Origin: Brachyspira alvinipulli ATCC 51933
GTDB taxonomy: Bacteria; Spirochaetota; Brachyspiria; Brachyspirales; Brachyspiraceae
Direction: 5' to 3'
DNA length: 64,000 nucleotides
Assembly (NCBI RefSeq): GCF_000518245.1
Contig: NZ_KI912403.1
Location: 258,600 to 322,599 of the forward strand
The notes below the pieces were generated by a model. That model was not told the DNA's origin. It did no database searches and worked only from the letters and a program-made list of their open reading frames with translations. Positions 4,745 to 13,806 of the stretch are shown here, one piece after another (within the stretch, counting starts at the first letter, position 1; the number at the start of each line of letters is the position of its first letter). The translations under genes and the position numbers were made by a program.

Positions 4745-5887
4745 TTACATATATAATTTATCTCTTACTTTTGATGCCCATTCTTTTTTATCATTTATTG
4801 AATCTTTAGATAATAGTAACTCATTAAAGGTATTTTTATATCCATCAGAAGTATCAGATAATTTTTCTATAATATCCAAAGCTTTATCAATATTGGATTC
4901 ATTATCCATTAATATCTCTATTATATATAATGAAAGCATTCTCATTTCATTAAATGTTCCTTTTTTACCTATCATAAAACCATAACATCTTTCAAAATAT
5001 TTAGTGTTAACCTCTTTATTATTATATTTATACAATAATAAAGTATATTCTTTTTGTATATCTACATCTTCCATTGAAGATAAATTGTATTTTATAAAAT
5101 TTTTCTCATTAGAAATTAATAAAGCAGCAATTTCTTTTGATTTTTGACTTATTTTAAATGTATTGCAGTATCTTAAAAGCCTTATAACAAAAAACTTACA
5201 TCCTTTATCTTTTTTATTATATTGAGATAAATATATATTAATTTTATCACCTAATTCACCGATATTTTCATCATCCTCTAATATTAAATCCAAATATTTT
5301 TGAGTATATTCTAAAAACTCTTCTTCATTTTTAGCACTTATAGCTAAATTTTGTAAATAACTATATTCTCTAATAATTTGATAATTATTATTTTCAAAAT
5401 ATTCTATTGATTTAAAATAAAAATCTTTAGCTTTTTCTAAATCATTTGTATCATTTGTAACATAATAACTGATATTATAGCTTTGTCCTAAAGTGCCATA
5501 TAATTTTGCTCTATCTTCTGATTTTATATTATTATCATCTAAAGTTTCATTTAATGCTTTTATAGAATCTTGAGCATTATATTTATACCAATACACAATA
5601 TAACTTATCGTATCAAATAATATAACCCTATCTTTAAACTCACTGCTATTTAAAGCATAATCTCTATAATTTTTATTATCTACTAAAACTTCATAAGCGT
5701 TTTTATCATCATCTGAATGATTAAAAACTGCCAATTTTTCTGTATTAATTGCAAATACTATTGCTTTATTCAAAGATATGTCATCTGTTAAAATATTTTT
5801 TTTAGCTAAAGATATTAAAATATCATAAGATTCTATAATATCATCATAATTATAAAGTGAATTAGATTCATACTCAATATTTTCCAA
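4745..5887 (-). CDS. helical-repeat (TPR-like) protein, probably 3' part of the split DUF3800 gene
   Basis: 380 residues read from the first possible start, a TTG at 5887 without a ribosome site. The frame is open all the way up to the TAA at 6002-6004 that ends the DUF3800 ORF, and both ORFs are in the same frame, separated only by that stop. The upstream extension reads as protein (KIFSKIANYFKEDKHWKK). The body is all-alpha with paired helices of about 35 residues (RAKLYGTLGQSYNISYYV, LEKAKDFYFKSIEYFENN), resembling TPR repeats. It may be the C-terminal domain of a 1155-residue protein cut by a nonsense mutation, or a separate downstream gene. Confidence 0.5.
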   Translation of the reverse strand: MENIEYESNSLYNYDDIIESYDILISLAKKNILTDDISLNKAIVFAINTEKLAVFNHSDDDKNAYEVLVDNKNYRDYALNSSEFKDRVILFDTISYIVYWYKYNAQDSIKALNETLDDNNIKSEDRAKLYGTLGQSYNISYYVTNDTNDLEKAKDFYFKSIEYFENNNYQIIREYSYLQNLAISAKNEEEFLEYTQKYLDLILEDDENIGELGDKINIYLSQYNKKDKGCKFFVIRLLRYCNTFKISQKSKEIAALLISNEKNFIKYNLSSMEDVDIQKEYTLLLYKYNNKEVNTKYFERCYGFMIGKKGTFNEMRMLSLYIIEILMDNESNIDKALDIIEKLSDTSDGYKNTFNELLLSKDSINDKKEWASKVRDKLYM

Positions 5888-6001: not shown

Positions 6002-8211
6002 TTAATTATTTGAAAAATAAATCTTTCTAAATGTAATATATTTACTTAAAATATTAAAATAATCTTTTTTTTCTAGATATAAATCTATATCTTTACTAAA
6101 AGGATTATACTTAATTTTTAAATAACATAAATATAAAAATGTTGTAAATATCCCAGTGTCCATTCCATTACCATGTTTAAATGAATAAAACATATTACAA
6201 AAATAATCAGCTATAACTAAATCAGTATCTTTTGTAGCATTTGTTAAAGGAAGTATGGAATATTCTAAATTTTTACTATTCAACCCATAATTAATTTTTA
6301 TTTTCTCTATTCCATCTTTTATAAATGGTTCTATATCCAATATTTCTAAATATCTAGTATTGGATAGATATCTCATATTTTGTTTTTTCCATTCATCTAA
6401 TATATCATTTATATTTACTGCATTTTCTATAGAAGACATCAAAAAATTTTCAACATCTTTAAATTTAAAAGTAAGGCTTTTATATTTATCTTCATAGCTT
6501 CTTGATGAAAGTTTTATAATTAATAGCAATTTTTCTTCACTTAAATTAATTTTATCATCTGATATGATTTTATTTAATGTTTTAATTACTAAATCAGAAA
6601 GCAAATCAACATAATATTGTCTAGTAAAATCTATATTAAAAGGATTTTTTTCATATACATATATAAATTTTCCGCCATTTATTTTTATTAATCTAAATAC
6701 ATCATAAGTAATTGCTTTCTTTTTATTCTTTTCTAGTTCATTTCTATGCAATAAAGTATCATCAAATATTCTAAATTTATGTCTTAATATATCAAAATAA
6801 TTTTTTGTAATATTATTCCATTTTCTCATATTAATATCATTAATTAAATATCCGCCTATTATAAATACATTCTCTCTATTATCATTAATATTGCCGCTTT
6901 CATCCATATAAAGATTGTATACCCTCAAATCAGAAAATAATAAATCCATTATTTCATATCTTACATTAATTTTATTACAGAATGAATATAATTTCTCCGA
7001 AGAAACAGAATGTTTGAAAATTGCAAGTAAATAAATCAATGGAAAATTATTATTTTCTATTTTAAGATTAAAAACTTCCTGCAAATACTTATCTATATAA
7101 TTGTTTTCTTCATTATTTTTTTTATCTTTTTCTTTTAATACTATATCTGTAGCCTTATTTTTAAATAGTAAAAGATCTTCATCTGTTAAAGAATTTATAA
7201 TTAATTTGTCATCTAATATATCAATATTTGATATGATTCTTTTTATGTTATCATCATCAATTTTATTTTCTTTAGCCTTAGTAAGTAATTCTAGTATATA
7301 ACCTTTGCTATTATTATCTAAAATACTAAAAACATCTCTAAAAGTAATTAACTGTTTATTTTCAAAAAGAACAATATTTATAATATCTTTTTTAATATCA
7401 GATTCATCATCAAATAAATATATCAATGAAGAGAATAAATACATAAAAGGAAAATTAGAATTATCATTAATAATATTATCTAAGTTAACATCTAATAAGT
7501 TTTTAATATAATCCATTTTTTCATTTTCTTCTCTTATCTTTTTTTTACAAAATAATTTTTGTATTATATCCTTCACTATACCCAATTGAATTTCATCAAA
7601 ATTATTAACTTTAATTTGGATATTAGTAATATTAATATCTTTAATTAAAGAGTCTATATATTCATTATGATAATCATATCTTTTTAATTCTATAAATAAA
7701 TCTCTAATCTTTTTTTGTCTTCAGGATACAATATATCAAATAAATCTTCAAAAAATATTTTGTCTGTATTTTCAATAAATACAATATTATTTATTTTCTT
7801 TATAAATTCATCATTAAAATATTCATCAACATTACAAAAATAAAAAATAGATAAAATATAAGCAAATGGAAATAATTTATTATTATTTTTTATATCATCT
7901 ATTATGGTATTTGGAATATTATAAATATATTTGTTGATTTCATCAAAAGTAATATTTTCATTATATTCTATATATTTATATAAATATTCTTTTAACAATA
8001 TGTGTAAAAAATCAATCTGTTCCTCTGAAATATTATTTATCTTAAAATTATAACTTATCGTAGATTCTATATTAGAAATTATTTTCTCTAAATCAGTATT
8101 TTCATGGTTACTATTTTTAGCATTATGTACTAATTGTAATAATTCATTTTTAATATTATCATTGCTTATTATATCATTACAATATATAAATTTTTCATTA
8201 TCAATTAACAT
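6002..8211 (-). pseudogene. DUF3800-domain protein gene split by a frameshift
   Basis: Two abutting open stretches, 8211-7690 and about 7716-6002, are in adjacent frames. Adding one base to the seven-T run at 7710-7716 (A7 on the coding strand) joins them without a break into 736 residues. Near restored residue 435 the protein has YMDESG followed by NVFIIGGYLI, and near 665 VIADYF: the N- and C-terminal signatures of DUF3800, an RNase H-like-fold family often found in mobile or defence loci. The first 430 residues hold three copies of a module with FPFAYILSIFYF, FPFMYLFSSLIYLF and FPLIYLLAIF. The ATG at 8211 has a weak upstream GAGGATT. It could be inactive, phase-variable at A7, or an assembly error. 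Confidence 0.65.
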
Positions 8212-8440: not shown

Positions 8441-9352
8441 ATGAAGAACATCATAATATCAATAATATTTATTTGCAATAGTATTGCATTTTCTTATGAC
8501 CTAGTTTCTATAATTAATGATTATAGATTCAAAAATGGAAGACTATCATTAAAACAAAGTTATGAATTAGATATAGCTACATCTAAAATGGCGGAAATGT
8601 ATGCCAATGAAGGTACTTTGGATAATGATATGATTGGAGAAGCACTTTCAGATATCAATTTAAATATTACTTCTTTTGTAATTAGCAATATAGACGGATT
8701 CGATTCTTCTGATTCATTAGTAAAAATTTGTCTGCCTTCTAATGATTTTTTAGCTAATTATGATTATGCCTCAGTTGGAGTTTATAGGGTTGGAAATTAT
8801 AATTATGTGGTAACTGCTATTTATAATGAAATTGATTATAATGCTGAAGTTGATAAAATATATGATTTAATAACATACAATAGGAATAATAATGGAGCTA
8901 TAACAAAATTAAAAAGAGATAAAAATTTAGAAAAAATGGCAATGGCTAGAGCAAAAGAATTATTTGAAAACTATTCACATACGAGACCAAATGGAAAAGA
9001 ATTCTACACAATAATGGAAGACTTGAATATAAAAAATTACTGGAATGGAAATGGAGAAAATATTGCTTATGGATATAAGGATGCCAAACATGTAATGAAA
9101 GGCTGGATGGAATCTAAAGGTCATAGAGAAAATATTCTTGATAAAAGATATACAAGTGTTGGAGTAGGATTATATATAAAAAACGGCTTAGCTTATTGGG
9201 TACAAATATTTGGAATAGATAATCCAAAATATAAAGATAATAATACTGAATATAATAAAAAAGACAATGAATATAATACTTATAATCAATATGATTCTTA
9301 TCAAGACTATGATGAATACGAAGATCATTATAAAAATGATTCTTTATACTGA
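8441..9352 (+). CDS. secreted CAP/SCP-domain protein, two CAP-like halves
   Basis: 303 residues with a signal peptide (1-19, ending near AFS). Residues about 147-262 form a CAP (SCP/PR-1) domain with the usual signatures HTRPNGKEF, GENIAYGY, and GWMESKGHRENIL, including both histidines of the cavity. Residues 20-140 look like a second, degenerate CAP fold (DYRFKNGRLSLKQSYELDIA) lacking those histidines. The tail from about 268 is a low-complexity Tyr/Asp/Asn stretch. Bacterial CAP proteins are exported and of mostly unknown activity. AAGGAG precedes the ATG. Its stop lies 4 bp before the promoter of the left repeat array. Confidence 0.85.
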   Translation: MKNIIISIIFICNSIAFSYDLVSIINDYRFKNGRLSLKQSYELDIATSKMAEMYANEGTLDNDMIGEALSDINLNITSFVISNIDGFDSSDSLVKICLPSNDFLANYDYASVGVYRVGNYNYVVTAIYNEIDYNAEVDKIYDLITYNRNNNGAITKLKRDKNLEKMAMARAKELFENYSHTRPNGKEFYTIMEDLNIKNYWNGNGENIAYGYKDAKHVMKGWMESKGHRENILDKRYTSVGVGLYIKNGLAYWVQIFGIDNPKYKDNNTEYNKKDNEYNTYNQYDSYQDYDEYEDHYKNDSLY

Positions 9353-9356
9353 GTAT

Positions 9357-9385
9357 TTGACAATACAATAAAATGATATTATACT
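9357..9385 (+). promoter_or_regulatory. sigma70-like promoter of left repeat array
   Basis: TTGACA at 9357-9362, a 17-bp spacer, then TATACT at 9380-9385. This is a 6/6 and 5/6 match at ideal spacing, pointing into the array. The expected RNA start is near 9392, about 12 nt before the first 28-nt variable segment. Confidence 0.6.
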
Positions 9386-9403
9386 TATTTACATATTTGC
9401 TTA

Positions 9404-9776
9404 ATAGGAGGCGTGGTACAAAGTATCATCCGTCCCGATACCCTGTTGCTTATGCCTTAAAGAGTGGTTTTAATAAACTGTTTCTGGATATACAGGAAAG
9501 CGGGATTTCCACCAGCTACTGCAATAGTTTTTTAGGTCTCGATACCCTGTTGCTTATGGCTTAAAGAGAGGTTTTAATAAACTGTTTCTGGATATACAGG
9601 AAAGCGGGATTTGTATTGATTTTTAATCTCAGTCATGTAGTCTCGATACCCTATTCAAAGGACTGCGTGTGCCTTTGGCTATAAAAATTGCTAGTGCCTG
9701 CCTAACATTCGAAAGAATGGCATAAGTTATTAACTAGTAATTTTTTATTGATGATAAAATATAGGAAAGTGGGATT
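9404..9776 (+). CRISPR. atypical CRISPR-like array, left (two 76-nt repeats plus one 137-nt repeat)
   Basis: Repeat 1 is 9432-9507 and repeat 2 is 9536-9611; they differ at only a few positions. Both begin GTCYCGATACCC and end AGGAAAGCGGGATT. A third unit, 9640-9776, shares these ends but has a different, longer interior. The segments between them, 9508-9535 and 9612-9639, are both exactly 28 nt and unrelated in sequence; the 28 nt before repeat 1 (9404-9431) would be a further one. Each 76-nt repeat can fold: GAT(A)CCC pairs with GGGATT, GCTT with AAGC, and inside are hairpins TTAAA/TTTAA and TTTCTG/CAGGAA. A promoter and a terminator bracket the array. The repeats are far longer than ordinary CRISPR repeats, so the CRISPR label is tentative; tandem small RNAs are the alternative. 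Confidence 0.45.
9640..9776 (+). ncRNA. long terminal repeat-unit RNA of left array
   Basis: A 137-nt unit with the 76-nt repeat's ends (GTCTCGATACCC and AGGAAAGTGGGATT) around a different core. The core has a CAAAGG/CCTTTG stem, a 13-bp stem AAAAATTGCTAGT with ACTAGTAATTTTT, and an apical CATTC-GAAA-GAATG hairpin with a GNRA loop. It is about 80% identical to the unit at 13627-13758, with partly compensated stem changes. It is followed after 4 nt by the terminator. It may be a variant final repeat or a distinct structural RNA domain. Confidence 0.45.
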
Positions 9777-9780
9777 AATG

Positions 9781-9816
9781 GCTCTGTTAAGGTTCATAAT
9801 CTTGGCATGGCTTTTT
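9781..9816 (+). terminator. terminator of left repeat array
   Basis: Stem GCTCTG-TT-AAGGTT, loop CAT, AATCTT-GG-CATGGC (with wobble pairs and one mismatch), followed by TTTTT. It lies 4 nt after the long repeat, exactly as in the right array. Confidence 0.6.
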
Positions 9817-9970
9817 ATATTTTAATTAGATTTTTTATATGATATATGTCTATTAATGATATTAAATTGTTTCTACATATAAATAATGTTTTATTAAAAT
9901 TTGAAATTAACAATACATACCTAAACAACTATATTTTGTCAAAAATAAGTTTATATTTTTGTTTTTATAT

Positions 9971-10110
9971 ATGGGGCTTTGCCCCATACCCCAGTTCTTT
10001 TACGACCGAAGGAAGTACTGTAAGTATTGGTATAAGGCACAGCCCGCCTTCGGCGAGAACCTATATCCTCGACAGGCTCGGATACGCTTCGCGAACAACT
10101 GCATTTTTAA
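9971..10110. repeat. GC-rich hairpin element, noncoding
   Basis: A locally GC-rich stretch in an AT-rich background, with ATGGGGC-TTT-GCCCCAT (9971-9987) and CGCC-TTC-GGCG (10045-10055) hairpins. It lies between the left array and the 3' end of the Cas13-like gene. Open frames through it look artificial. It resembles a dispersed intergenic element of the genus, judged by composition and not by any second copy in this window. Confidence 0.4.
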
Positions 10111-10182
10111 CCTAAAATTAGGGTATTACACCATATTTAATAGATATTCTTAAATATAAAGTTCTAGTAATTGCGTTTTTTG

Positions 10183-10295: not shown

Positions 10296-13200
10296 TTATT
10301 TTTTATTGTATTTATTATTTTTTAGATATACATCTTTTAAAGATTTTTCTAAAGTTTTTTTCATAGCATCATCTAATATAGATATAGCAGACTTATAATT
10401 AAGTTCAGCACTTTCATCAAATAATCTTCCATGTGCCAACATATTTCTAACATTTATTATTTTTTCAGTTTCAGAATCATCAAAAGCAGAATTATTTTTA
10501 TGATTATCTAAAACTCTTATTTTTTCTATATCTATATTATGTAAACTAACTAAATCTCTGAAATTGAAATATCCCTCTTCTCTTGTTAATTCATCTATTT
10601 GAGGTTGAGTATATATTTTATTTAGTGTGTATATAATATCAGCCTCTATGTTACAAATAAAATATAATAATTCTTTTTGAGCCCATACCAAAACTTTTAC
10701 CATATCTTTTATATTATCTGCATTTAAAATATCTTTGCCAATCTCTGCAGAAACTTTAGGACATTTATTTTTTAATATATAATGAGAAGTAATCATTTTA
10801 TAAGATTTAATGACATTAGTAAGACATTCCTGTAAATCTTTCTTTCCTCCAATTCTACCTTCTTCTTTTATTCTTGAAGCATCGAATATCCAATTTAAAG
10901 CAGAACGTATATCTTTTTTCATATAGTCTTTTATATTAATTTCAATGATAGGATTTAATTCCCATATTAAATTAAATTTTAAAGGGCTATTATCTGTTAT
11001 ATCCTCATAACTTTCTAATCTGAAATAAGAATTTCTATTTTTATTCATATTATTAACATATTGTAAAGATATATATGTTAATATCATTTCTTCTGCTATA
11101 ATATTTCTAATTTCTTTATTTCTGTATTTATCTATTTTATTATTTTTAATATAATCATTATATATATCAACTAAATGAGGAGGAGTCATTTTTTCTTGTT
11201 CAAAAATTTTTGACAGTATATCAAATAAATCCGCATTTTTATTTTTAATATCATATTTAGTTTTTATATCATTCCATTGAAGTATGTCTGAAATTTCTTT
11301 GTTTTTCTCATTACAAGGAAGAAATGCAAATTTACTCCAAGTTTTAAAAAGTAAATTATCAGAATCGTTTTTTATTTCTTTATTTGGAATAGTAAATAAA
11401 GTAAAAGATTGATTAAGCATTTCAGATAAAGTATTACATCTAAGTACATTCTTTACTTTATCAGAAAAATTACGTGTATCAACTTTATATCTATGCATAA
11501 CAGCAATGACATCATCATATACATTTCCAGTTCTATTATCTAATAAATATAAAACTCTAGTAAATTCATGGAAGAAAGCAACACTATCTCTGTTATGTAA
11601 TTTCACATTTTTCATAGCACTTCTTCTAATAACTTTAATTATAAAAGAAGCCTGCTGATATCTATTCCAATTTTCACTTTTCTTTTTAATAGCATCAATT
11701 AATAATCTATCATTATTAACTTTATTAGTTTCTTTATTATTAGAAGCGGTACAATTATCTGATGCAGTAGTTTTTAATTTTTTGAATTCCACTCCACCAT
11801 TAATTAAAATAGAAGTTATTAAGGCTCTTAAATTATGTCTGTTTAAACTGTATCTTTCTGCATTTTTTTTACTGTACACTATTTTATATATGGAATGTAA
11901 TCCATTTTTTGAAGGCTTAACTTTTCTTCTCAGATCAAATAATATATCATCATTAGGCTCAATCCATATAATAGTATTTCCAGATATAGTCCAAGTATTA
12001 TTTCCAAATTGACTTTTATATTTTAAAGATAAAAATTCAGCTGCATCTTTAATAAAAATATCTTCATTTCTAAACACATTAGTTAATAAAGGTATAATAT
12101 TTTTATACTCAGTTTCCAAACGAGGTACAGGCTGTTCTTTTAATATTTCATCACGCCCTACTTTAGCATTATGCTCTTTAACATTTCTATTAAACTCTAT
12201 TATACCATCAATTTTATTCTTATTGGCATTCGCTATTTCTTTGGCTTTAAACTCTCTTATTAAATCTTCAAATTCTTCAATCTTTGGAAAACTTGTTCTA
12301 TAGCTATAGAATTTCAAAATCTTTTTATAAACTGCAAAGTCATTATTAACATCAATATCATTAATATTGAAATATGATAAGTTTTTTTTAAGTCTTCTTC
12401 CTGTAGTAGAAACTTCATTATTAACTATATATTCATTTTCTATTTGTTTTAAATATAATTCATCATCTTCTAAAGAAATACCTGGAACAAAAGTTTTATA
12501 TCCACCTCTTAAAGAAAATGAAAGTATAAATTCCTCAATAAATTTTTTCAATTTTATTAAGTCCAAAATATCTTTTATATACTTACTTTCAACAAACATA
12601 GCCAATATTGATAAAGCATATATAAATGGTACATTGGCAAAATTTTCTCCCATTCTTTCAGCATTCATTTCCAATACTTTTTTTATATATTCATTTTTAA
12701 TCTCAAATTTATCAGATGATAATTTTATACCTTCTTCTTTATTTTTTTCTTTTAATAAAGATTTTTGTTTATCATTGATTCCAAAAGCAGCCTTCATATT
12801 AAGTATTAAAAATGTAAATAAATCTCCTTGAAATTTTTTAAATTTACATCTTGAAAAAGTATCTTCTTTTACATTTTTATGCATCATTATATTTCTAAAA
12901 TCTCTTAAAAATACTGCAGCCTCAGTAAAAGCATTATTGATTTTATACTCCAACACATTCTGTCTAATAAGCATATTATCTTCTTTGATAAATTCATCTT
13001 TATATTCTGAAGGAAGTTTTTCAAATCTATTTCTTATAACAACTGCAAAATCTTTTTTAAGATGTGATTTTTCATATTTAAATTGTTTATTTTCAACAAT
13101 AAATGTAAGAAGCGGTATTAATAGTTTTTTAATTTTATTTTTATCTTTGTCATTGTGCTTCTTATCTTCTTTCAAAAAATAAGATAAATAATATATTTCA

Positions 13201-13355
13201 TTGTTATTTCTATTATTGTTATTATTTCTATTGTTATTATTATTATTATTGCTGTCTACAGTATTTTCATCAGAATTAAATAATTGATCAAATGGATTAT
13301 AAGTTTGAGAATCGGGTGTATATGAATATCTTTTTTTACTATGATTATTAGACAT
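10296..13355 (-). CDS. Cas13-like protein with two HEPN RNxxxH motifs
   Basis: 1019 residues. The N-terminal motif RNIMMH (R154-H159, in FLRDFRNIMMHKNV) and the C-terminal motif RNMLAH (R970-H975, in NVRNMLAHGRLF) both match R-N-x3-H, the HEPN ribonuclease signature. One motif near each end, the second 44 residues from the terminus, is the topology of Cas13b and Cas13X/Y, not of Cas13a/d; the size lies between Cas13d and Cas13b. In Cas13 the two HEPN domains form one RNase site after guide-RNA pairing. Residues 36-53 are a poly-Asn linker. The start ATG follows AAAGGA. Structured repeat arrays flank it on the opposite strand and no cas1/cas2 is present. What lies between the motifs is not recognisable by eye. 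Alternatives are a toxin-type HEPN RNase controlled by the flanking RNAs. The HEPN assignment is secure in motif; Cas13 homology is inferred. Confidence 0.65.
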   Translation of the reverse strand: MSNNHSKKRYSYTPDSQTYNPFDQLFNSDENTVDSNNNNNNNRNNNNNRNNNEIYYLSYFLKEDKKHNDKDKNKIKKLLIPLLTFIVENKQFKYEKSHLKKDFAVVIRNRFEKLPSEYKDEFIKEDNMLIRQNVLEYKINNAFTEAAVFLRDFRNIMMHKNVKEDTFSRCKFKKFQGDLFTFLILNMKAAFGINDKQKSLLKEKNKEEGIKLSSDKFEIKNEYIKKVLEMNAERMGENFANVPFIYALSILAMFVESKYIKDILDLIKLKKFIEEFILSFSLRGGYKTFVPGISLEDDELYLKQIENEYIVNNEVSTTGRRLKKNLSYFNINDIDVNNDFAVYKKILKFYSYRTSFPKIEEFEDLIREFKAKEIANANKNKIDGIIEFNRNVKEHNAKVGRDEILKEQPVPRLETEYKNIIPLLTNVFRNEDIFIKDAAEFLSLKYKSQFGNNTWTISGNTIIWIEPNDDILFDLRRKVKPSKNGLHSIYKIVYSKKNAERYSLNRHNLRALITSILINGGVEFKKLKTTASDNCTASNNKETNKVNNDRLLIDAIKKKSENWNRYQQASFIIKVIRRSAMKNVKLHNRDSVAFFHEFTRVLYLLDNRTGNVYDDVIAVMHRYKVDTRNFSDKVKNVLRCNTLSEMLNQSFTLFTIPNKEIKNDSDNLLFKTWSKFAFLPCNEKNKEISDILQWNDIKTKYDIKNKNADLFDILSKIFEQEKMTPPHLVDIYNDYIKNNKIDKYRNKEIRNIIAEEMILTYISLQYVNNMNKNRNSYFRLESYEDITDNSPLKFNLIWELNPIIEINIKDYMKKDIRSALNWIFDASRIKEEGRIGGKKDLQECLTNVIKSYKMITSHYILKNKCPKVSAEIGKDILNADNIKDMVKVLVWAQKELLYFICNIEADIIYTLNKIYTQPQIDELTREEGYFNFRDLVSLHNIDIEKIRVLDNHKNNSAFDDSETEKIINVRNMLAHGRLFDESAELNYKSAISILDDAMKKTLEKSLKDVYLKNNKYNKK

Positions 13356-13451: not shown

Positions 13452-13480
13452 TTGACATATTAATATTTAGTTGTTAAAAT
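13452..13480 (+). promoter_or_regulatory. sigma70-like promoter of right repeat array
   Basis: TTGACA at 13452-13457, a 17-bp spacer, and TAAAAT at 13475-13480, pointing away from the Cas13-like gene into the right array. The expected start is near 13487. The gap from the -10 box to the putative first 28-nt segment is 16 nt, against 18 nt in the left array. Confidence 0.6.
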
Positions 13481-13496
13481 AATACAACTAACTAAA

Positions 13497-13758
13497 TTAC
13501 AGTTTCTATATGGGTTCGCCACCAGTCTCGATACCCTGTTGCTTATAGCTTAAAAAGTGGTTTTAATAAATCGTTTCTGGATATACAGGAAAGCGGGATT
13601 ACCGGGATTTCTGTAATCTCTTGTGTGTCTTGATACCCTATTCAAAGGACTGCGTGTGCCTTAATAAAAAATTGTGAGTGCCTGGCATTCAAGAGAATAG
13701 CAGGAGCTTATTAACGAGCAATTTTTTATTTATGATAAAAATATAGGAAAGCGGGATT
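13497..13758 (+). CRISPR. atypical CRISPR-like array, right (one 76-nt repeat plus one 132-nt repeat)
   Basis: The 76-nt repeat at 13525-13600 matches the two in the left array, including GTCTCGATACCCTG, TTTCTGGATATACAGGAAAG and the final GCGGGATT. A 26-nt unrelated segment (13601-13626) separates it from the long unit 13627-13758. The 28 nt at 13497-13524 fit a leading variable segment. It is transcribed divergently from the Cas13-like gene, from a promoter at 13452-13480 to a terminator at 13763-13806, predicting an RNA of about 320 nt. As for the left array, the repeats are unusually long for CRISPR. Confidence 0.45.
13627..13758 (+). ncRNA. long terminal repeat-unit RNA of right array
   Basis: The counterpart of 9640-9776, starting GTCTTGATACCCTATTC and ending AGGAAAGCGGGATT. 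The central AAAAAATTG/CAATTTTTT stem and the apical ATTC-AAGA-GAAT hairpin are kept despite small indels, as expected for a conserved RNA fold. Confidence 0.45.
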
Positions 13759-13762
13759 AATA

Positions 13763-13806
13763 GCTCTGTTAAGATTCAAAATCTTGGCAGGGCCTTTGTT
13801 TTTTTA
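13763..13806 (+). terminator. terminator of right repeat array
   Basis: GCTCTG-TT-AAGATT, loop CAA, AATCTT-GG-CAGGGC, then CTTTGTTTTTTT. The stem is fully paired apart from an internal TT/GG step, and the T-run makes it a strong intrinsic terminator on the plus strand. Positioned 4 nt past the long repeat. Confidence 0.75.

Follow-up and report, generated by a model that had tools for sequence, protein, structure and literature searches.

Positions 13452 to 13806 (plus strand) of the 64,000-nt stretch of Brachyspira alvinipulli ATCC 51933 DNA analyzed here, which we call the window, most probably (probability of about 0.8) form a two-unit CRISPR array that belongs to VI-F, a rare RNA-targeting subtype, and opens with a sigma-70-like promoter. 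On our best reading, it is a frozen but probably transcribed mini-array that would make long guides of the order 5'-spacer-repeat-3', and its direct repeats were putatively stretched to up to fourfold the normal length by hairpin elements that settled in the loop and left the presumed protein-binding part intact. The subtype as such is already known; the undescribed part, as far as we searched, is its repeat architecture, for which we found no description in the text of the key papers.

Organization of the array and of its counterpart

The array opens with the promoter TTGACA-17-TAAAAT (13452 to 13480), which agrees with the consensus at 11 of 12 positions and has homologues in the Brachyspira genome G093 and on contig C4 of the own genome. 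The segment that separates the first repeat from the expected transcript start (13487 to 13524) ends in about 28 nt that could be a first spacer or a leader; since it has a recognizable but diverged homologue in G093, it may be a leader and not a spacer. It is followed by the 76-nt form of the direct repeat (13525 to 13600), i.e., the 36-nt repeat extended by ~40 nt in its loop, a 26-nt spacer (13601 to 13626), and the 132-nt form (13627 to 13758), in which the 36-nt repeat carries an insert of ~96 nt that includes a dispersed palindromic element (13664 to 13730). The intrinsic terminator (13763 to 13806) starts 4 nt further on, with its stem at 13763 to 13793 and a T-rich tail after it.

A left array (9357 to 9820, plus strand) mirrors the right one, and both lie opposite to the gene of a Cas13 protein. 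It consists of the promoter TTGACA-17-TATACT (9357 to 9385), a stretch between expected transcript start and first repeat (9392 to 9431) that is a possible first spacer and is unconserved in G093, two 76-nt repeats (9432 to 9507 and 9536 to 9611), two 28-nt spacers (9508 to 9535 and 9612 to 9639), a 137-nt repeat with a palindromic insert (9640 to 9776), and a terminator-like hairpin with a T-run (9780 to 9820; repeat family D2) that is homologous to the right terminator. The 76-nt copies at 9536 to 9611 and 13525 to 13600 are each 89% identical to the reference copy of the direct-repeat family D1. Between positions 9200 and 14000, the two array promoters, both matching the consensus at 11 of 12 positions, are the top two among 52 promoter-like sites, and the right terminator stem is the sole plus-strand terminator-like site (2 sites found in total versus 0.7 expected).

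The first-pass annotation had listed the promoter, the 76-nt repeat, the 26-nt segment, the 132-nt repeat, and the terminator of the right array, and all of them are located where it had put them. Its statement that the same 132-nt repeat is present on both sides holds for the right array, whereas the left copy measures 137 nt. The distances of 16 and 18 nt that it gave from the -10 box to the first spacer hold only if a first spacer of 28 nt is assumed; with a transcript start about 7 nt past the -10 box, 38 to 40 nt lie ahead of the first repeat.

Elsewhere in the own genome, at least two more repeat-spacer loci exist in trans, on contigs C4 (L009) and C13 (L010). The C4 locus is a single unit of promoter, 34 nt, one repeat, and terminator. 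The two flanking arrays have a common terminator, and each is probably a cassette copy of the other; the one-repeat unit on C4 is probably a further copy.

Directly upstream of the left array, a gene for a CAP-domain (cysteine-rich secretory) protein is located on the same strand (8441 to 9352) and is kept in G093. The intergenic DNA that separates the left array from the 3' end of cas13 contains a GC-rich, imperfectly palindromic stretch (9970 to 10120), which is also found in G093.

The Cas13 effector and its neighboring genes

The cas13 gene (10296 to 13355, minus strand) encodes a subtype VI-F protein of 1019 aa that matches the PADLOC profile Cas13gr13 over its full length (1620.8 bits). 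In an alignment with seven relatives, both HEPN motifs (RxxxxH) are intact, R154NIMMH159 and R970NMLAH975, and the protein is predicted to cut RNA under the guidance of a crRNA. The PADLOC group Cas13gr13 would correspond to the published Cas13f, judging from the common genus and the DUF3800 partner. Subtype VI-F is among the least studied Cas13 groups, with none of the solved structures matched by sequence, and searches of Pfam, NCBIfam, and PDB sequences gave no match for the protein. An AlphaFold model (five sequences) yielded a best PDB fold match to Cas13bt3 that was not significant (E = 0.063), and the fold comparison was kept out of the membership evidence because the pLDDT of the model was only 49.7. 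Among the relatives, cas13 of G065 (L030) is interrupted by stops, and Cas13 of G022 (L026) has Lys for Arg in the second HEPN motif.

On the same strand as cas13, a broken companion gene is found, of which the N-terminal part (6002 to 7585) carries a Pfam DUF3800 domain and aligns with residues 43 to 555 of a 976-aa open reading frame (ORF) in G093, and the C-terminal part (4745 to 5887) is 67% identical to residues 596 to 976 of that ORF. The companion is a single long ORF in G093, G098, G118, G123, G065, and G099; in the first five of these, cas13 is accompanied by a DUF3800-type protein that extends into a long C-terminal part. A 173-aa ORF at 7690 to 8211 also resembles the N-terminal part of the companion. 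The window thus contains the features of subtype VI-F, namely, a Cas13 effector, two HEPN motifs, an associated array, and a DUF3800 companion, the last in broken form.

In three relatives (G098, G167, and G118; loci L027, L028, and L025), cas1, which is closest to type II Cas1, and cas2 are located directly upstream of cas13; the window locus has neither of them. Two other cas1 genes exist elsewhere in the own genome, and the one that was compared (contig C3) is not a close relative.

One 36-nt direct repeat with a conserved clamp

Both repeat forms reported for the window by the first-pass annotation are present, yet they are not separate repeats: the first ~13 and the last ~14 nt are common to them, and they are length variants of one unit. 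This unit is a 36-nt direct repeat with the ends GTCTCGATACCCT and AGGAAAGCGGGATT, from which the 76- and 132-nt forms differ by loop inserts of different lengths. In G093, the Cas13 protein of which is 93% identical, the right array has the bare 36-nt unit GTCTCGATACCCTATTAGATATAGGAAAGCGGGATT beside 76-nt units, and the bare form was also detected in G118, G167, G163, and others. We had considered the long repeat as an element of its own and dropped this idea after the 36-nt form was found. Other Brachyspira arrays mix units of 36, 55 to 57, 103, 115 to 129, and 173 nt with the same two ends, and the 82 repeats collected across Brachyspira genomes range from 34 to 173 nt, a fivefold variation.

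The length forms that we folded have a common clamp of 6 bp, a 4x4 internal loop, and 5 bp (11 bp in total). Across 20 distinct clamp sequences, 95.0% of cells are paired compared to 90.2% in shuffles (0/500), and two-sided changes number 15 compared to 5.3 in shuffles, far above every slid control. The predicted clamp of the repeat halves is conserved, as judged from these comparative data and the compensatory changes in them; in the window repeats as well, the clamp pairs are kept via G-U pairs and compensatory changes. All 11 pairs are kept in 32 of 34 short repeats and in 30 of 45 long ones, and some long repeats may be decaying, since full clamps are rarer among them. Taken as a whole, the 76-nt unit does not fold more stably than its shuffles (z = -0.58). 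The only Rfam match, to a parechovirus element, fell below the threshold and was rejected.

Spacers and their targets

The 59 spacers from Brachyspira genomes (57 of them distinct) are 26 to 30 nt long (mean, 28.2; standard deviation, 0.74). This constant length, together with the fivefold variation of the repeats, identifies the loci as CRISPR arrays whose repeat carries inserts. No intact spacer is common to the window and G093, although cas13 and the upstream flank are 92 to 96% identical.

All window spacers and ~50 spacers of relatives were searched against 26 Brachyspira genomes, a subset of them against phage records, and six spacer cores against IMG/VR. The sole convincing match in all these searches was spacer 1 of G167, which agrees at 28/28 positions with a xanthine-dehydrogenase-like (xdh-like) gene in the same genome (L064, contig C74, 15151 to 15178) in sense orientation. 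Real spacer capture is supported by this exact copy of a host gene; given the sense orientation, a guide with this spacer would be unable to pair with the mRNA. For the window spacers, including the 26-nt spacer of the right array, no convincing target was found in the 26 Brachyspira genomes, the phage records (searched with a subset of the spacers), or the IMG/VR viral contigs (searched with spacer cores). A match of the second left spacer in IMG/VR covered only ~21 of 28 nt and was ascribed to chance; AT-rich matches of 20 to 25 nt in G009, G058, G147, and others likewise looked accidental. One viral contig with the start motif of the repeat (L066) contained no array.

The first-pass annotation had proposed that two CRISPR-like arrays with promoters of their own flank a Cas13-type gene on the opposite strand. 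This is seen in the sequence, and the comparative evidence agrees with it: the repeats differ in length and the spacers hardly do, cas1-cas2 are part of the loci of some relatives, one spacer of a relative is an exact 28-nt copy of a host gene, G093 has none of the intact spacers of the window, and two effector-flanking arrays on the opposite strand recur in G093 and in a metagenome-assembled genome (MAG) labelled Brevinema.

Loop inserts and repeat age

The inserts are of more than one kind. Relatives of the palindrome at 13664 to 13730 occur in 16 of 26 Brachyspira genomes, many of them outside arrays and in genomes in which VI-F Cas13 was not detected; in the own genome, it is also present on contigs C15, C9, and C8. 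Matches to a second palindrome, which lies in the 115- to 122-nt repeats of relatives, were found in 18 of the 26 genomes. All copies found of the ~40-nt insert in the 76-nt form lie in arrays, and this form matches only G000 and G093, both of which carry the gene.

Long repeats are concentrated toward the leader-distal end of the arrays (permutation P value, ~1e-4; 4.5e-4 if the last repeat is left out). In known CRISPR arrays, new repeats arise at the leader end, and the leader-distal position of long repeats therefore fits with inserts being gained with age. A more speculative idea, which we hold to be rather doubtful, is that VI-F repeats are a preferred and tolerated landing site for dispersed hairpin elements and that these, once in the loop, attenuate array transcription by their U-rich, terminator-like stems, so that older spacers would be expressed less. 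If true, each repeat would be a guide handle and at the same time a built-in dimmer that keeps a record of its age.

Comparison with known systems

In the 2025 classification (Makarova et al. 2025, PMC12669027), subtype VI-F (Cas13f) is limited to Brachyspira, and a nuclease with a DUF3800 RNase H fold is said to be encoded in some loci. As far as the text of that paper goes, the published subtype resembles the window in its genus, the two-HEPN Cas13, and a DUF3800 RNase H-fold companion in most loci. The same text gives no account of repeats, loop inserts, scattered arrays, or cas1-cas2, some of which may be shown in its figures and supplements.

Subtype VI-B (Cas13b) has short 36-nt and long 88-nt repeats (PMC8209922). 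The window resembles it in the 36-nt repeat, in a long form that consists of the repeat halves split by intervening sequence (PMC8209922), and in the distorted stem-loop, and its guides would have the 5'-spacer-repeat-3' order as well. In contrast, inserts of the kind found in the window are of many types and lengths (repeats of 34 to 173 nt), some of them being genome-dispersed elements, and by sequence the window Cas13 matched none of the Cas13b structures. Among the neighboring ORFs scanned, none matched Csx27 or Csx28. A small mobile palindromic element within a CRISPR array is also known from Haloquadratum walsbyi (PMC3119063); there, a single miniature inverted-repeat transposable element (MITE) interrupts a spacer, whereas in VI-F the elements recur in the repeats, at the clamp loop, and the spacers are spared.

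Alternative explanations

The locus might also be read as a type III toxin-antitoxin-like system of the AbiF/AbiFr kind, in which the HEPN protein would be the toxin and the repeats the antitoxin RNA, separated by variable segments that serve as neutral linkers. AbiF, the antitoxin of which is a structured RNA, has a common ancestry with HEPN RNases and Cas13 (PMC12737573), and the window has the same pairing of an HEPN RNase with a structured RNA partner, with long, structured repeats in few units. However, linkers need no fixed length of 28 nt, which is nevertheless kept over 57 distinct sequences, and one such "linker" is the exact copy of a host gene. AbiF/AbiFr systems have neither spacers nor cas1-cas2 (PMC12737573), and type III antitoxin RNAs in general come without acquired spacers or adaptation genes, which does not describe the loci studied here: cas1-cas2 adjoin the gene in three relatives, the protein matches the Cas13 profile in full length, and arrays are scattered far from the gene. 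We regard this explanation as very improbable. Still less credible is a chance flanking of the gene by ordinary intergenic palindromic elements (REP/MITE-like). Part of the 132- and 137-nt repeats is indeed such an element, with its copies on C15, C9, and C8 and in 16 of 26 genomes, but the repeat ends and the 76-nt form are confined to arrays, the latter to the two gene-carrying genomes G000 and G093, and the array unit of relatives is the 36-nt core free of any element.

Another possibility is that the array is a dead relict, the repeats of which decayed by insertions, with transcription and Cas13 binding lost. The absence of cas1-cas2, the broken companion gene, the presence of only long repeats, the loss of some clamp pairs in long repeats, and the lack of spacer targets in our searches are all in line with decay. 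Against this stand the intact Cas13 ORF with both HEPN motifs, the promoter with 11 of 12 consensus positions, the intact terminator, the G-U and compensatory changes by which the window repeats keep their clamp, and the flanking arrays with different spacers in G093. Taken together, a dead array seems unlikely, and a frozen VI-F array that probably is still transcribed remains our preferred reading.

Proposed guide formation

Based on its consensus match, the promoter of the right array would drive a plus-strand transcript ending at the array's own terminator. In this RNA, the halves of the 36-nt repeat would pair into the clamp, with the additional hairpin sequence in the clamp loop extending the repeat to 76 or 132 nt, and Cas13 would bind the clamp and ignore the insert. 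The guide would carry the spacer at its 5' end and the repeat at its 3' end, as in Cas13b, with a length of ~104 to 160 nt compared to 118 nt of the long Cas13b crRNA. Recognition of a target would then lead to cleavage of RNA by the two HEPN motifs.

The proposed polarity follows from the order of parts in the window arrays, where promoter, 38 to 40 nt, repeat, spacer, and repeat are directly followed by the terminator. A spacer at the 5' end is favored because every unit would be used; with the repeat at the 5' end, the last repeat would be of no use and the C4 locus would yield no guide. In group-2 relatives, the first repeat is located close behind the promoter, with no spacer ahead of it, and the polarity argument therefore applies to the reduced arrays of the own genome and G093. 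Where relatives have retained cas1-cas2, new spacers would be added at the promoter end, and inserts would build up in the older, distal repeats. Since the locus of the window is without cas1-cas2, all repeats of its arrays are long, old ones, and the arrays are probably frozen.

These arrays suggest that, in nature, very long loop inserts are tolerated in the VI-F guide handle, and from this a site for cargo on the guide RNA can be predicted. For type VI arrays, they also give a clear signal of polarity and age, and they place type II-like cas1-cas2 next to a Cas13f.

Distribution of VI-F loci

Profile searches detected the VI-F effector in 9 of 393 genomes of the spirochaete phylum, namely, 8 from Brachyspira and the uncultured MAG labelled Brevinema (L031/L043); a Cas13 scan of viral contigs found none. 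The VI-F-like Cas13 of the MAG (~32% identity) is paired with a gene for a DUF3800-type protein that has a long C-terminal part. Two arrays flank the cas13-DUF3800 pair, both in opposite orientation, with repeats of 36, 65, 69, and 86 nt and spacers of 28 to 30 nt. Neither the arrangement on both sides of the gene nor the stretching of the repeats is thus peculiar to the window. While the text of the classification gives Brachyspira as the only genus (PMC12669027), the MAG carries VI-F with repeats of 36, 65, and 86 nt, and its locus extends the subtype past this single genus. Given their fivefold variation in repeat length, such arrays could escape programs that assume near-identical repeats.

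The MAG G163 (85% complete) contains four leader-led or partial VI-F arrays (L079, L080, L083, and L084), with no cas13 detected. Arrays that start with a conserved leader and are located far from cas13 are also found in G118, G123, and G093.
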